A stretch of DNA of 64,000 nt, from positions 1 to 64,000 of the forward strand of contig JAPPBX010000010.1 of assembly GCA_026702755.1 (NCBI GenBank). The letters run 5' to 3'. The stretch comes from Candidatus Poribacteria bacterium (GTDB taxonomy: Bacteria; Poribacteria; WGA-4E; WGA-3G). Within the stretch, counting starts at the first letter, position 1, and every line of letters starts with the position of its first letter. The notes beneath the pieces were generated by a model that did no database searches, was not told the DNA's origin, and was given only the letters and a program-made list of their open reading frames with translations. A program made the translations under genes and the position numbers. Positions 36,852-44,300 of this stretch are shown piece after piece.

Positions 36852-37370
36852 GTGAATAGACAGCGGTTATTTAAAACTTTAGAGAACCAGGAAGGTAGAA
36901 GATATGAGCCTTATCCTGACAGCCGTGGAATTCCGACAGTTGGTATCGGTCTCAACCTCAGAGATGTCGGCTACAAAGGGAAAAAATATGCATCTGTTGA
37001 GGCATTCAAGGCAGACTACCCTGACGGTTTGACGGATGCTGAAATAGAAGCGGCATTTAATGAGGAATTAGAGCGTATCATCGGCAATGTAATTGAATTC
37101 TGTGAAGACAAAGGTGTAGATTACAACGAACTCAGCGACCTACGTCAAGAGATCATCGTCAATATGATCTTCAATATGGGGTTTGGCGGGATCGACAAAT
37201 TTTCGTTGATGTGGCAACATCTTGCGGCAGGCAATTATATCGGCGCAGCGTTAGAGATGTTGCATAGCAGCCGTGGTAAGCTTTCGTCTTATGTACGTCA
37301 AGTCCAGATGCGCGCCGTCCGTTTGGCTATTGCGATGGCGACGGATGACGAAGCCGCACTGGAGTTGTGA
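36852..37370 (+). CDS. T4-type lysozyme (GH24) family protein, no signal peptide
   Basis: Muramidase fold. The active-site triad matches T4 lysozyme spacing exactly: Glu14 in LENQEGRRYEPYPD, Asp23, and Thr29 in GIPTVGIG. The helical lobe contains RQEIIVNMIFNMGFGGIDKF, equivalent to the N-x-x-F-N-x-G segment of GH24. GTG start at 36852. It has no export signal and no holin or phage gene beside it, so it may be a domesticated endolysin, or an effector delivered by another route. A frame of 44 codons overlaps its stop. Confidence 0.82.
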   Translation: MNRQRLFKTLENQEGRRYEPYPDSRGIPTVGIGLNLRDVGYKGKKYASVEAFKADYPDGLTDAEIEAAFNEELERIIGNVIEFCEDKGVDYNELSDLRQEIIVNMIFNMGFGGIDKFSLMWQHLAAGNYIGAALEMLHSSRGKLSSYVRQVQMRAVRLAIAMATDDEAALEL

Positions 37371-38821: not shown

Positions 38822-39871
38822 CTACAATGGCAATTCAACCGGACGACCTTCACGACTTGATTGGTAGATGGCAAGAATAATCTCAACGGCTTTGCGCCCC
38901 TCACGTCCATCGACGAGATGCGAAGCATCTTTTTCAAGTCCGTTGATCAGGTTTTCCATCTGCCGTCTGTGATTTGCATGGTTAATCGCACGCGGGTCAG
39001 ATGCGCCGCCACCGGTATCTGTCTTTTGGGCGAATTTCTCTCGGATTTCCGCATCTTCAGGAAGTTCAGGATCGAATTCCCATGTAACGATGTCTTCTTC
39101 GGCTAAGACAACAGTCCCGTGTGTACCGGAGATTTCGGTTTTCTTAAGCATGCCGGGGTAAGCAGCGGTTGTGCCCTCAATTACACCCAGTGCACCGTTT
39201 TCAAATCGGAGCGCGGCGACAGCGGCATCCTCAACCTCTATCCGCTCGTGCGCTAAAGTATCGGTAAACGCTTGCACAGATTTGACAGGTCCCATAAAAT
39301 ACTGCAGTAGATCGATGGCATGGATAGATTGGTTCATGAGTGCGCCACCGCCGTCAAGATCCCATGTACCTCGCCAGCCGCCACTGTCGTAATACTCTTG
39401 AGAACGGTACCATTTGATATAGGCATCGCCTAAAGTTAGTTTGCCGAATCGTCCGCTCTCAATCGTGGATTTAACGAGTTGTGTACTTTCGGTGAAACGG
39501 GAATTGAAGATAGCACAGAGTCGAACAGCGGCTGCATCACACGCTTCAATAATCTGATCGCACCGTTGTAGCGTAATCTCCAACGGTTTTTCAACGATGA
39601 CGTGCTTACCGGCTTGTGCTGCGGCGACGGCGGGTTCCAAGTGTGCACCGCTCGGCGTACAGACGCACACGATATCAAGGTCGTCTCGTTTGAGCATCTC
39701 CATATAATCGGGGTAGCTGTCAACGTTGTATCGATCAGTGAGCCGTTTGGCGTTCTCAGCGTTTCGTGAACTGACTGCGACCAATTGCCCGTGTTCTAAT
39801 TCAGAAATTGCGGCGGAGTGGAAATCGGAAATCATTCCGCACCCAATAATACCAAATCCGTAAGTTTTCAT
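38822..39871 (-). CDS. Gfo/Idh/MocA-family oxidoreductase
   Basis: MKTYGFGIIGCGMISDFHSA is the dinucleotide-binding start. HVIVEKPLEITLQRCD has the catalytic Lys and GGGALMNQSIHAIDLLQYFMG the substrate-domain His. The open frame continues upstream for 71 more codons over the divergent TPR gene, but those are not family-like, so ATG 39871 is used. Product 349 residues, a usual size. Cytoplasmic sugar or polyol dehydrogenase; specificity unknown. Divergent from the TPR gene across a 51-bp gap that must hold both promoters. Confidence 0.88.
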   Translation of the reverse strand: MKTYGFGIIGCGMISDFHSAAISELEHGQLVAVSSRNAENAKRLTDRYNVDSYPDYMEMLKRDDLDIVCVCTPSGAHLEPAVAAAQAGKHVIVEKPLEITLQRCDQIIEACDAAAVRLCAIFNSRFTESTQLVKSTIESGRFGKLTLGDAYIKWYRSQEYYDSGGWRGTWDLDGGGALMNQSIHAIDLLQYFMGPVKSVQAFTDTLAHERIEVEDAAVAALRFENGALGVIEGTTAAYPGMLKKTEISGTHGTVVLAEEDIVTWEFDPELPEDAEIREKFAQKTDTGGGASDPRAINHANHRRQMENLINGLEKDASHLVDGREGRKAVEIILAIYQSSREGRPVELPL

Positions 39872-39922
39872 ATTTCGTGTATTCCTTTTGTGAAAACGAA
39901 AATTTGTGAGTTTAAAAAAATT

Positions 39923-40558
39923 ATGATTTCTAACGAGAATCCAATTACAGAAAATCCAACTACAGAGGAAGAGGAACAGACGCTTGGCAATAAGGTTTTT
40001 AGAATTGTCTGTATGACCTTCTGCCTTGCAGTAACGGTACTGTTTCTTTGGGTCTGGCATCACCGAACCCAGTTCAACGACCACTACCGGAAGGGAAATT
40101 TTCTATTGATGGGCAGCGGCGAAGCAAAGCAAGCCATTGACGCGTATCAGAAGGCGATCAAAAATAAAAAGCGCACAATTTTCTTTACGAAAGAACCCTC
40201 GGTTTACAATAATCTTGGACAAGCATATTTATATGCTGGAGAATATGCCCCCGCCGTTGAGAACTTTAAAAAAGCGATTGAGATGGCACCAGATGTAGCA
40301 AGAGGATATGTGCATCTGACAATCGCCTATCTCCGGCAAAACTTAGCTGCAGAAGCGCGTGAGGCGTGCCTACATGCCCTGCAAACCTTCCCAAAGACTG
40401 CCCGACTCCACTATAACCTCGCGTGCGCTTACGCGTTAGAGGATAAATCTCAAAAAGCGATAGACTCGCTCACACAAGCAGTAAGTCTCAACCCAGAACT
40501 CAAAACGCTTGCACAACAAGAGGAGGTACTTAAAGGAATTGTGCCTGAATTGCCCTGA
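39923..40558 (+). CDS. Membrane-anchored tetratricopeptide-repeat protein
   Basis: An N-terminal acidic stretch (NPTTEEEEQTLGNK), one membrane span (VCMTFCLAVTVLFLWVW), then about three to four TPR units: AIDAYQKAIKNKKR, SVYNNLGQAYLYAGEYAPAVENFKKAIEMAP, ARLHYNLACAYALEDKSQKAIDSLTQAV. These repeats mediate protein-protein contact. ATG 39923 avoids the overlap with the divergent gene. Convergent with the nuclease-like gene 12 bp downstream. No specific partner can be named. Confidence 0.75.
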   Translation: MISNENPITENPTTEEEEQTLGNKVFRIVCMTFCLAVTVLFLWVWHHRTQFNDHYRKGNFLLMGSGEAKQAIDAYQKAIKNKKRTIFFTKEPSVYNNLGQAYLYAGEYAPAVENFKKAIEMAPDVARGYVHLTIAYLRQNLAAEAREACLHALQTFPKTARLHYNLACAYALEDKSQKAIDSLTQAVSLNPELKTLAQQEEVLKGIVPELP

Positions 40559-40570
40559 ATTCCAAGTACT

Positions 40571-41056
40571 TTACAATACATCTGCCAACTTTCTACCACA
40601 GCGCGCCGTCTTAATTTCAAATGATTTCCCACCGAAAGGTACTTGTGACTGAGGCTTTTTGAGTCGTTCAACTTCCGCTGTACTAATACTCCTACAAAAT
40701 AGGATTGGGCGGCAGATGTTTTTAACACCCCTCGGTGTGTAATCAATAGCAAAAGCAGCACCACTTTTTAATTGTCTTGCTGCTTGTGACGCGTCAACAT
40801 TACTGCCTCCTTTGAGTTCCATCGGAATAACTACAAAGTTTCCTACGTCGTCGAAGTAGAAGAGAACACACTCACATTGATTTTCCCCTTCTTGTCCACT
40901 CGGAAATACTTTGTCTAAATCCACCACAACTCGATTGCTTTCTGATACACCAGTTAAGTTTACGCTGCATCGACCCCGTCTAAACGAGTTTCCGCTAAAA
41001 AGATTTTCTTTACCTATCCGATCTCGGATACCTTCAAGAATTTCACTCCTGTTCAA
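40571..41056 (-). CDS. Small restriction-endonuclease-like (PD-(D/E)XK candidate) protein paired with the ATPase gene
   Basis: Begins at a TTG 8 nt after AGGAGG; the ATPase stop falls inside the first 14 bases, so translation is coupled. The core reads NRVVVDLDKVF, CVLFYFDDVG and VIPMELKGGSNVDASQAARQL. An acidic strand followed by E-L-K is what a PD-(D/E)XK nuclease site looks like, with the following Gln-rich helix. About 161 residues, soluble. With the upstream OLD-like ATPase it forms a two-gene unit like ATPase-nuclease defence pairs such as Septu. The family is not recognised and the nuclease call rests on the motif pattern alone. Confidence 0.5.
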   Translation of the reverse strand: MNRSEILEGIRDRIGKENLFSGNSFRRGRCSVNLTGVSESNRVVVDLDKVFPSGQEGENQCECVLFYFDDVGNFVVIPMELKGGSNVDASQAARQLKSGAAFAIDYTPRGVKNICRPILFCRSISTAEVERLKKPQSQVPFGGKSFEIKTARCGRKLADVL

Positions 41057-42509
41057 CCTCGGTGCCTCCTGCTGTCTCCGCAAGTTGACCTCGGAGGTCT
41101 ACCGAACGATTGTAGAGTTCCTCAGCTACTTCTCCATACTCCTCTGGCTCTATCCCTGCGATATGCTCGAACGAGATCTCCTCTACTGGTTTGTCTGTAC
41201 GGAACCACCACGCGCCAACCTCTTCTTTTGTCAACCAAGTCTCCGATTCAGTCTGATTTTCCTCTATTTTCATTACTTCACCTTCGCGAACCAAATTGCT
41301 AATTTGCTCAAGGAGCCAGTTGCTATGTGTTGTTATAATCACGCGAACACCAGCGCGCACTAAGCGGGCGAGGGTCAGAGCAACCTTAGTTTGGGCAGCG
41401 GGATGCAGATGGGCTTCAGGCTCTTCAATGATGAGCGTATCACCCACTTGAACAACACCGTGTAGGAACAACACGAGCGGCGCGAGCTCAGATACCATTG
41501 ATGAAGATCGGTTCATACGTAGCGTCTGTTCCGATTTTTGTGGGCGATAGCGAAATTCCGGATATCCTGTCGCAGGTCGTCTAACTTCTATCTCTCCACG
41601 TAGGACCTCGTCTTCCAGAACTTTGACAATTCCACTCATCTCATCTGAAAACCAGCGACGTTCATCGTAATTAATGATTTGCTTCAGAAAATCCGCTATC
41701 ATCCCCGAAAATACAGGAATTTCAGAGAACTGTTCCAACCCGACACGGGTAGCACGGTCTACAAGTGAACTGGCAATCATACCGTGGCTTTGCATGATAC
41801 CGCTCCGGGCAGCAGGAAGGTAATAAGATTTTGTAGGCGCAATCCAACTAAAACCGCGCACGGGTTCTTGCCTCCAATCTCTAGTGTCAAGTGCCTCTCG
41901 CAACGCGGTCCTATCGTCGGGACGCAGGACTGTATCTTCACTTATAGAACCATCTGTAGTAACTTCGGTGCCAGAGTTATAGATGCCAAATGACCAGAGG
42001 ATCTGGTTTTCCTCGCGAACTTCCAATAAGATCTTCATTGCATCATGCCGACTGTCCGTAAATCTTATGAGTTCTGAAGCGGACTCAAGATCGAAACACC
42101 GTCTAAGTTCATCTTTAAACCTTTCAGAATTCACCAAATCTGATTGCAACCGGTCTCGTAACCACTGCGGTGAATCAGAAAATTTGAATGGCTGTCCAGA
42201 CACATTTAATTTTTCAAGCACCTCTCGCGTTTCTGTTGATAATGCTTGAGTCGAGCCGATGGGATGTCGCGAGTAGTGAACACTAGCTAATTCGAGAATA
42301 CGATGAGGCGACCAAGGAACGCGTGAGATTCCATAAAAAGTACGGTGTAATGCATAAATGAGCGCGGAGAGATAGGTCTTACCGGTGTTACTCTCACCAA
42401 CAAACACAGTTAGCGGACGCAAATCTATCTCCGCTTTCTCTATGGGTCCAAAATTTTCAACAGCAATTTGGACATCTGGATGCTTTGATAAACTCTTGGT
42501 ATCAGGCAT
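41043..42509 (-). CDS. OLD/AAA_15-type ATPase of a probable two-gene defence unit
   Basis: ABC-type ATPase head. VENFGPIEKAEIDLRPLTVF leads into Walker A GESNTGKT (38-45). The signature-like region is LAPLVLFLHGVVQ, Walker B is DTLIIEEPEAHLHP and the His switch VIITTHSNWLLEQ. A helical insertion of about 280 residues separates the two halves, in place of the long coiled coil of SMC proteins. No TOPRIM domain is fused, unlike OLD nucleases. The partner nuclease-like gene overlaps its stop. Such pairs commonly sense phage or invading DNA; that is inferred from architecture. The pair shares no strand-continuous operon with its neighbours. Confidence 0.8.
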   Translation of the reverse strand: MPDTKSLSKHPDVQIAVENFGPIEKAEIDLRPLTVFVGESNTGKTYLSALIYALHRTFYGISRVPWSPHRILELASVHYSRHPIGSTQALSTETREVLEKLNVSGQPFKFSDSPQWLRDRLQSDLVNSERFKDELRRCFDLESASELIRFTDSRHDAMKILLEVREENQILWSFGIYNSGTEVTTDGSISEDTVLRPDDRTALREALDTRDWRQEPVRGFSWIAPTKSYYLPAARSGIMQSHGMIASSLVDRATRVGLEQFSEIPVFSGMIADFLKQIINYDERRWFSDEMSGIVKVLEDEVLRGEIEVRRPATGYPEFRYRPQKSEQTLRMNRSSSMVSELAPLVLFLHGVVQVGDTLIIEEPEAHLHPAAQTKVALTLARLVRAGVRVIITTHSNWLLEQISNLVREGEVMKIEENQTESETWLTKEEVGAWWFRTDKPVEEISFEHIAGIEPEEYGEVAEELYNRSVDLRGQLAETAGGTEVEQE

Positions 42510-42571
42510 TACGTTTTCCTATTAGCAAAGGTTTTAAATCAATTATACGCCTATTCCTGCCTATTTGCAAC

Positions 42572-42600
42572 AAAAATGGGCGAGAATAAATCCCGCCCAT
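42572..42600 (-). terminator. Rho-independent terminator of the LamG gene at 42621
   Basis: On the minus strand ATGGGCGGGA-TTTAT-TCTCGCCCAT followed by TTTTG, 20 nt after the LamG stop. It also lies before the ATPase gene start, separating the two units. Confidence 0.8.
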
Positions 42601-42620: not shown

Positions 42621-43409
42621 CTATCTCTTCAAATTGCCCCAGATTGTCGCCAATTTACCGCGGGCAGAAACATCAAGGGTGTCCTTGACGATCTGCTGGA
42701 GTTCAACTTCAGAAAGCGCATAGTTAGCTAACATCAATTCATCAATACGTCCCTGAAAGAAACGCGGACAGCATCCGTTATTCTCACCGCCGAACCGTAA
42801 AGGTTTATCCACTCTGCTTAGCCCAGGTCCCTTCTGTGCGATAGCAGTGCCATCAGATTCGCCATTGATATAGAAACCGGCTTCTTTTCCATCCCACACA
42901 ACGGCAACATGGCTCCACTCTTTCGCCTTTATCTTACCATCAGAGATATGGTAACCCGGACTACTCGTCTCGTAGAAATAGTAAGCAAGTTTCCCTTCAC
43001 CGGGTTCAATTTGCAGATAATAGGTGTTCTTGTAAAAGATGGTGAATTTGTTTGCCTGATCACCCGCTGGTAGTTCATCAGGATAAACCCACGCCATCAT
43101 CGTAATCGCTTCGTCTATATCAATCTCATCGGAGTGCTTGACTTCTATAAAATCGGCTTTCCCAACTTTGCCAGCCATCTGCACGGCTTTGCCGAGGATA
43201 CCCTCGGTCCACTTAATATTCCCAGTAAATTCTCCGACTAAACCAGCAGTATCCTCTTTACTCTGTTTCCCATTACCTTCGTCGAAATGCCAGACATACA
43301 GTTGTTTACCGAGTTGTTTCACGTTCCCTTTTCCGCCTGCAGCGTAACCTACAAAGCAGAGAAATAGATTTAGAAAAACGCATAGCATCACAAGCATTCG
43401 GATTCTCAT
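42621..43409 (-). CDS. Secreted LamG-domain protein with WGxLK tag
   Basis: AGGAGGAATCACAG precedes ATG 43409; the longer frame begins in the terminator of the neighbouring gene and is rejected. The signal peptide spans MLCVFLNLFLCFVGYAAG. A LamG jelly roll follows: YVWHFDEGNGKQSKEDTAG, ITMMAWVYPDELP, EWSHVAVVWDGKEAGFYING and GRIDELMLANYALSEVELQ. The end DVSARGKLATIWGNLKR has the shared tag. It is flanked by its own terminator and by that of the upstream LamG gene, so it is probably monocistronic. It forms a second locus for the tag, 19 kb from the main island. Confidence 0.87.
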   Translation of the reverse strand: MRIRMLVMLCVFLNLFLCFVGYAAGGKGNVKQLGKQLYVWHFDEGNGKQSKEDTAGLVGEFTGNIKWTEGILGKAVQMAGKVGKADFIEVKHSDEIDIDEAITMMAWVYPDELPAGDQANKFTIFYKNTYYLQIEPGEGKLAYYFYETSSPGYHISDGKIKAKEWSHVAVVWDGKEAGFYINGESDGTAIAQKGPGLSRVDKPLRFGGENNGCCPRFFQGRIDELMLANYALSEVELQQIVKDTLDVSARGKLATIWGNLKR

Positions 43410-43430
43410 CTGTGATTCCTCCTCATAGAA

Positions 43431-43463
43431 TGAAAAGAAGGGCGGGTGCAAAACCCGCCCTTC
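43431..43463 (-). terminator. Rho-independent terminator of the LamG gene at 43530
   Basis: On the minus strand GAAGGGCGGGT-TTTGC-ACCCGCCCTTC followed by TTTTCA, an 11-bp perfect stem about 70 nt after the stop. Confidence 0.82.
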
Positions 43464-43529
43464 GGTAGAAAACTTAGAAACAGGCAGGCGTTGTGGCACT
43501 GCTGCTACAATAGAGAAAAGTTATCTATT

Positions 43530-44300
43530 TTACCTCTTTAACTTACCCCACGTCGTGGCAAGTTTGTCTTTCGGAGACACAGCAAAGTAAACGCCGTTTT
43601 CCATATCTTGGTTAATTTCCTCAACTGTGAGTGCACGGTCATAGATGGCTACCTCATCAACTAAGCCGATCATACCGTTCAGTCCCGTTTGCGCTTTACC
43701 GATACGAAAAACAACTTCAATGCTGTTAATTTTACCCTTTGGTGGTGCGAATTCTACATCCAATTTGCCATCAATATATTGGCGAATCATATCACCATCG
43801 TAGGTAGAAGAGACATGGTGCCACTCCTCTAAATCGGGCTTAATGGTCTGTTTATTTCGGGAACCTTGCCACCCACCGATGTTAATCCATGTCTCAATCT
43901 GTGGGGCACCGGTAAACTGCGCGCTCCATTGGAGACAATAGCCGCCAACATTCGCCCCGCTCCTACGTCCCATCAAGTTAGAGTCACCTTGGGATTCTTC
44001 AGGGAAAAACCAAGCTTGAATCGTGAGTTCATCGGTGATGTCGAGTTCGGGGACTGCGTCAACTTCTACAAATTTTTGGGAGTCTTCAAGGTAGACAGCA
44101 CCTCCGAATTTGCCATCTTTCGACCAGACTGCCCCTTCAAAAGTGCCTTCAATGCTATTCCCGCTCACGTCTGTAACTTTGCCACCCTCGTCTTCGTCAA
44201 AGGTGAAGTACAACATAAGCGCATCGTCATCGTTTAACGCCCACGCACTCACACTAAAACTTAAGGCAATGATGGAAAAAACCGTGATAATCGGTTTCAT
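43530..44300 (-). CDS. Secreted LamG-domain protein with WGxLK tag
   Basis: Signal peptide TVFSIIALSFSVSAWA. LamG strands: LMLYFTFDEDEGGKVTDVSG, AVYLEDSQKFVEV, LTIQAWFFPEESQ, EEWHHVSSTYDGDMIRQYID and GLVDEVAIYDRALTVEEI. The tail VSPKDKLATTWGKLKR carries the tag. GGAGCTCACTGTT precedes the ATG. Typical ligand-binding or anchoring domain of the Laminin_G_3 type; no fused enzyme. The 271-bp gap upstream holds a short repeat of the CAGTTGTCGG type and presumably the promoter. Confidence 0.87.
   Translation of the reverse strand: MKPIITVFSIIALSFSVSAWALNDDDALMLYFTFDEDEGGKVTDVSGNSIEGTFEGAVWSKDGKFGGAVYLEDSQKFVEVDAVPELDITDELTIQAWFFPEESQGDSNLMGRRSGANVGGYCLQWSAQFTGAPQIETWINIGGWQGSRNKQTIKPDLEEWHHVSSTYDGDMIRQYIDGKLDVEFAPPKGKINSIEVVFRIGKAQTGLNGMIGLVDEVAIYDRALTVEEINQDMENGVYFAVSPKDKLATTWGKLKR

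Follow-up and report, generated by a model that had tools for sequence, protein, structure and literature searches.

The window analysed here is a stretch of 64,000 nucleotides from the genome of a sponge-associated Candidatus Poribacteria bacterium, and the locus of interest consists of two overlapping genes on its reverse strand, as the initial annotation had reported. The upstream gene (41043..42509) starts with ATG and encodes an OLD/PtuA-like ABC ATPase of 488 residues. The downstream gene (40571..41056) starts with TTG at 41056, overlaps the end of the ATPase gene by 14 nt and encodes a small PD-(D/E)xK-like protein of 161 residues, designated type A; in frame with an upstream TTG the product would contain 170 residues. 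The pair lies in a hotspot flanked on the left by the gene of a TPR protein (39818..40558, forward strand) and on the right by two genes of LamG-like proteins (42621..44300, reverse strand), all of which are conserved in the genus and lie outside the cassette. The LamG gene ends in what resembles an intrinsic terminator, a hairpin ATGGGCGGGATTTATTCTCGCCCAT with a T run after it (42576..42600, reverse strand), and this is the right edge of the hotspot. Directly after the terminator comes a sigma70-like promoter, TTGCAA-N17-TATAAT (42542..42570, reverse strand), the putative driver of the cassette.

The small protein was present in 59 of the 98 related genomes searched, with one to seven matches per genome, and the carriers came almost all from one and the same order. 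The ATPase gene adjoins the small gene in nearly all loci inspected, and purifying selection acts on both genes (dN/dS 0.10-0.24 for the small gene and 0.11-0.18 for the ATPase gene). This occurrence, together with the adjacency and the selection, indicates that the pair is not due to chance. When GTDB contigs were searched with a narrower alignment of the small protein, the named relatives were all Poribacteria, and no match to the small protein was obtained by tblastn in plasmids or phages.

The ATPase and its small partner

The ATPase contains a Walker A motif, GESNTGKT, at residues 38-45, a Walker B motif, LIIEEPEAHLHP, at residues 359-370 and an H-switch at His395. No TOPRIM domain was detected in this protein or in its partner by Pfam, PADLOC and NCBIfam searches, and the motif assignments made initially are thus confirmed; membership in OLD, Gabija or PARIS was rejected because TOPRIM is absent from both proteins. 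Pfam assigned the ATPase to AAA_15 (4.5e-24) and also to AAA_21, the top PADLOC families were PD-T4-4_A (2.6e-37) and PDC-M47A (4e-32), and the NCBIfam PtuA score was 27.8 against a cut-off of 500. When its AlphaFold model (pLDDT 72) was compared with the PDB by Foldseek, PtuA ATPases, from Septu and from Septu-type retrons, ranked first (E 7e-10). Heads of SMC and RecN proteins were also among the structure matches.

The small protein gave no useful direct family match in Pfam, PADLOC (none at E<=1) or NCBIfam, in agreement with the earlier remark that it belongs to no recognised family, and a PDB sequence search gave no match; a match to rplB (E 0.13) was regarded as noise. Of the three motifs named in the initial annotation, all of which are present, DLD (46-48) and ELK (80-82) fall at conserved positions, whereas FDD is not conserved among homologues and for this reason is probably not catalytic. 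In the alignment of 25 homologues D46, E80 and K82 were invariant and position 62 was D, or E in the clade of the window; the conserved set comprises the acidic positions 46/48, 62 (D/E) and E80 together with K82 and Q95. The type-A clade has Glu at position 62, where PD-(D/E)xK enzymes usually have Asp, a point against the assignment. In several proteins of a second type (type B, see below) D46 is replaced by Asn and D48 is retained, so that the two positions are treated together.

The model of the small protein (pLDDT 93.4) resembled PD-(D/E)xK nucleases. Its top PDB matches, which were individually weak (best E 0.012), were nearly all nucleases of the restriction fold (BspD6I, EcoO109I, NucS, Cap4, HamA and Card1), and Foldseek against viral models gave only weak, mixed matches. 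Stronger evidence for the nuclease identity was provided by profile comparison. Relatives of the ATPase occur on plasmids (E. coli, Serratia, Enterococcus, Annamia and Bernardetia) and in a Vibrio P2-like phage, beside CI and a recombinase. Each is directly followed by a small gene, and the products of these genes match PD-T4-4_B or PDC-M47B in PADLOC. The profile of the window nuclease aligned with these partner proteins (profile-profile, 94.6%, E 6.9e-8), D, D/E62, ExK and Q falling in the same columns, and with a single PDC-M47B protein, the best single member, at 95.1% (E 3.2e-8). The probability for a single PD-T4-4_B protein was 3.9% (hhalign), and a control, an HSDR_N-like PD-(D/E)xK-like protein, scored 0.1%. 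These profiles and the predicted fold make a nuclease of the PD-(D/E)xK type the very probable identity of the small protein, as suggested initially. The ExK motif and the lack of an HNH family match likewise bear out the earlier statement that the partner is not an HNH nuclease.

Chromosomal sites of the cassette

The content of the site between the TPR and LamG genes (site 1) was read in 38 Poribacteria genomes of one genus. A type-A nuclease, as in the window, was found in 12 of them (7 apparently intact, 4 broken and 1 split between contigs) and a type-B nuclease in 8 (6 apparently intact and 2 broken), some of the broken alleles being possible assembly errors; the site was empty in 15. 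In one further genome (G021, L054) the ATPase has a type-B tail and the nuclease gene is absent, which makes it an apparent orphan sensor; another (G020) retains a short remnant, and G012 was left unclassified. Type-B nucleases are 32-41% (about 35%) identical to type A at this one site, compared with 76-94% for the flanks. In G030 and G014 the nuclease gene is open next to a broken ATPase gene, again with assembly errors possible. The G024 assembly contains the type-A and type-B versions of the site on different contigs (L059 and L069), possibly as a strain mixture (6% contamination).

No target-site duplication, integrase or transposase was visible at site 1. Nearly every filled site has kept the promoter-like sequence directly after the LamG terminator, as have 12 of the 15 empty ones (L039-L053), where no gene lies downstream of it. 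Its retention suggests that many of the empty sites arose through loss; in such sites the sequence may be either a scar of that loss or a landing promoter.

A second site for the cassette family is located between an oxidoreductase gene and the gene of a 456-aa protein. It behaves like site 1: as judged by the flank gap, it was filled in roughly 23 genomes and empty in others, including the genome of the window itself (G000:C90:129128-129184; compare L116/L117). The flanking genes of a filled (G031) and an empty (G037) version were 99-100% identical. In some genomes this site also contains a pair composed of an AAA_21 ATPase and a DUF4276 protein (L077:5757-7689, L084:10431-12300 and L085:5782-7739), apparently a different ATPase-effector cassette in the same place.

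Several other copies of the cassette have nearby genes for DNA methylases (the window's own genome and G038), for a ThsB TIR protein of Thoeris (G058), for an NTPase of the NACHT/STAND kind (G011) or for an ATPase-DUF4276 pair (G007, G009 and G045). The additional copy in the window's genome (L076, G000:C69:10000-22000) is divergent, its nuclease being about 31% identical; beside it lie two genes of N6/N4 DNA methylases and one whose product weakly matches HSDR_N_2. The initial annotation had held that homologues found consistently in housekeeping contexts would speak against a defence role. The flanking genes at both main sites are indeed mostly housekeeping; the pair, however, is either inserted between them or missing, which is the pattern expected of hotspot cargo.

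Separate exchange of the insert and of the tail with the nuclease

The Walker regions of the ATPase are 80-97% identical between alleles, whereas identity falls to as little as 35% at residues about 61-280 (41670..42329, reverse strand), the most variable part being 61-240. This hypervariable insert, the proposed sensor region, is under purifying selection (w 0.25-0.31). The insert class of the window, shared with G005, G001, G029, G024 and G016, was found with both nuclease types, and insert identity was equal within and between types (e.g., 0.59 and 0.59 at residues 121-140). The opposite behaviour was shown by the C-terminal tail, residues 441-480 (41070..41189, reverse strand), the proposed docking segment for the nuclease, whose identity was 0.84-0.86 within a nuclease type and 0.46-0.58 between types. 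Residues 421-440 carry no signal of the nuclease type, so that the association stops sharply at residue 440; it is partly confounded by the physical adjacency of the tail and the nuclease gene.

Mantel tests gave rho 0.78 (p 0.001) for tail and nuclease, as against 0.02 for insert and nuclease, -0.03 for flank and insert and -0.08 for flank and nuclease, and in AU tests the flank, insert and nuclease trees were each rejected on one another's data. In three pairs of genomes with closely similar flanks (G023/G016, G036/G018 and G005/G017; flank identity 90-91%) the alleles were different, in both inserts and nuclease types. The insert and the tail together with the nuclease are separately exchanged modules with independent histories. 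The synonymous divergence of the shared insert class (0.18-0.46) was well below that of the core (0.58-1.16), so that the transfer of the insert between species is more recent than the divergence of the core. In type I restriction, the specificity region of hsdS is swapped by recombination inside a conserved scaffold. The present exchange resembles this by analogy only, a putative specificity region likewise being swapped in a conserved scaffold; in the cassette the ATPase insert is exchanged and so, independently of it, is the effector nuclease, and no methylase takes part.

Relation to known systems and proposed function

The closest characterised analogue of the pair, by architecture and description and not by sequence, is WonAB from the WASA-1 prophage of V. 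cholerae, which is composed of an OLD-ABC ATPase and a 16-kDa PD-(D/E)xK nuclease (PMC12137116). WonAB aborts phage infection, and point mutants of either WonA or WonB lose protection; WonB is toxic only alongside active WonA, is predicted to bind the C-terminal extensions of WonA, and acts by translation arrest without DNA degradation, tRNA or rRNA being the suspected target (PMC12137116). WonAB resides in a prophage, whereas the Poribacteria pair occupies fixed chromosomal sites, its inserts are swapped, and both nuclease types occur at a single site. The in silico class that Krishnan et al. 2020 named 'OLD-ABC ATPase + Novel REase', and that includes WonAB according to PMC12137116, has the same architecture as the window pair, the likeness again being one of description. 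As for PD-T4-4 of E. coli (PMC9519451) and the PADLOC candidate PDC-M47, the ATPase matches the A family of each, as given above; the B-family HMMs of both miss the nuclease, the profile of which aligns with the two B families pooled. The structures that the ATPase model matches best come from Septu and Septu-type retrons, and to this extent the Septu-like layout suggested initially stands; PtuB, however, is an HNH nuclease and the window partner is PD-(D/E)xK-like with an ExK motif, so membership in Septu was rejected. The pair belongs nearest to the already described group of WonAB, PD-T4-4 and 'OLD-ABC ATPase + Novel REase', and the earlier interpretation as a two-gene defence system is broadly borne out.

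Most probably, judging from sequence, models and analogy, the pair is a WonAB/PD-T4-4-like anti-phage cassette of abortive outcome, with modules exchanged by recombination at fixed sites. The OLD-type ATPase would dimerise upon ATP and hold the small nuclease via its C-terminal tails until a phage-induced cue, read by the variable insert, leads to release or activation of the nuclease. The active nuclease would then shut the infected cell down, and the phage would die along with it. Recombination between the conserved flanks may account for the gain, loss and re-assortment of the cassette, the insert and the tail-plus-nuclease being exchanged as separate modules. It is tempting to go further and to regard the locus, tentatively, as a combinatorial immune site in which the insert sets the phage cue, the tail and nuclease set the effector, and recombination between species mixes the two behind one conserved promoter, with no mobile element; the chances of this wider reading are perhaps a little short of even.

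Fixed insertion points, the polymorphism of filled and empty sites, and boundaries set by homologous flanks, with transposase and target-site duplication absent, would also suit a selfish homing-like element, whose nuclease cuts its own empty allele so that homologous repair copies the cassette in, the ATPase regulating cleavage with no benefit to the host. This is very unlikely, since the family is common to two unrelated chromosomal sites, hypervariable inserts under purifying selection and a tail matched to the nuclease are not expected of such an element, the plasmid and phage relatives fall in the PD-T4-4/PDC-M47 defence families, and WonB does not degrade chromosomal DNA (PMC12137116). 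Equally improbable is a toxin-antitoxin pair whose ATPase just neutralises the nuclease, the locus being kept by addiction. The overlapping operon, the effector-sized nuclease and the patchy distribution agree with it, but the frequent loss seen in the empty sites would be costly were the ATPase an antitoxin, as would the open nuclease genes beside broken ATPase genes (with the possible assembly errors mentioned), and WonB is toxic only in the presence of WonA (PMC12137116). A housekeeping or DNA-repair pair, made up of a RecF/RecN-like ATPase and a NucS-like nuclease, is by a narrow margin the least probable: the structure matches to SMC/RecN heads and NucS and the housekeeping neighbours fit it, yet the pair is missing or broken in many congeneric genomes, and the divergence of the nuclease alleles at one site relative to the flanks is unlike that of housekeeping genes.

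If the pair is the anti-phage cassette proposed here, its natural swaps offer a direct handle on infection sensing by WonAB, PD-T4-4 and related ATPases, through the independent variation of an insert of ~180-220 residues and the joint variation of a 40-residue tail with the nuclease. Because the nuclease subfamily goes undetected by PADLOC, Pfam and NCBIfam, such Poribacteria systems are currently missed. A phage-lysozyme-like gene (GH24-like by eye; 36852-37370, forward strand) is also present in the window, a few kb from the cassette.
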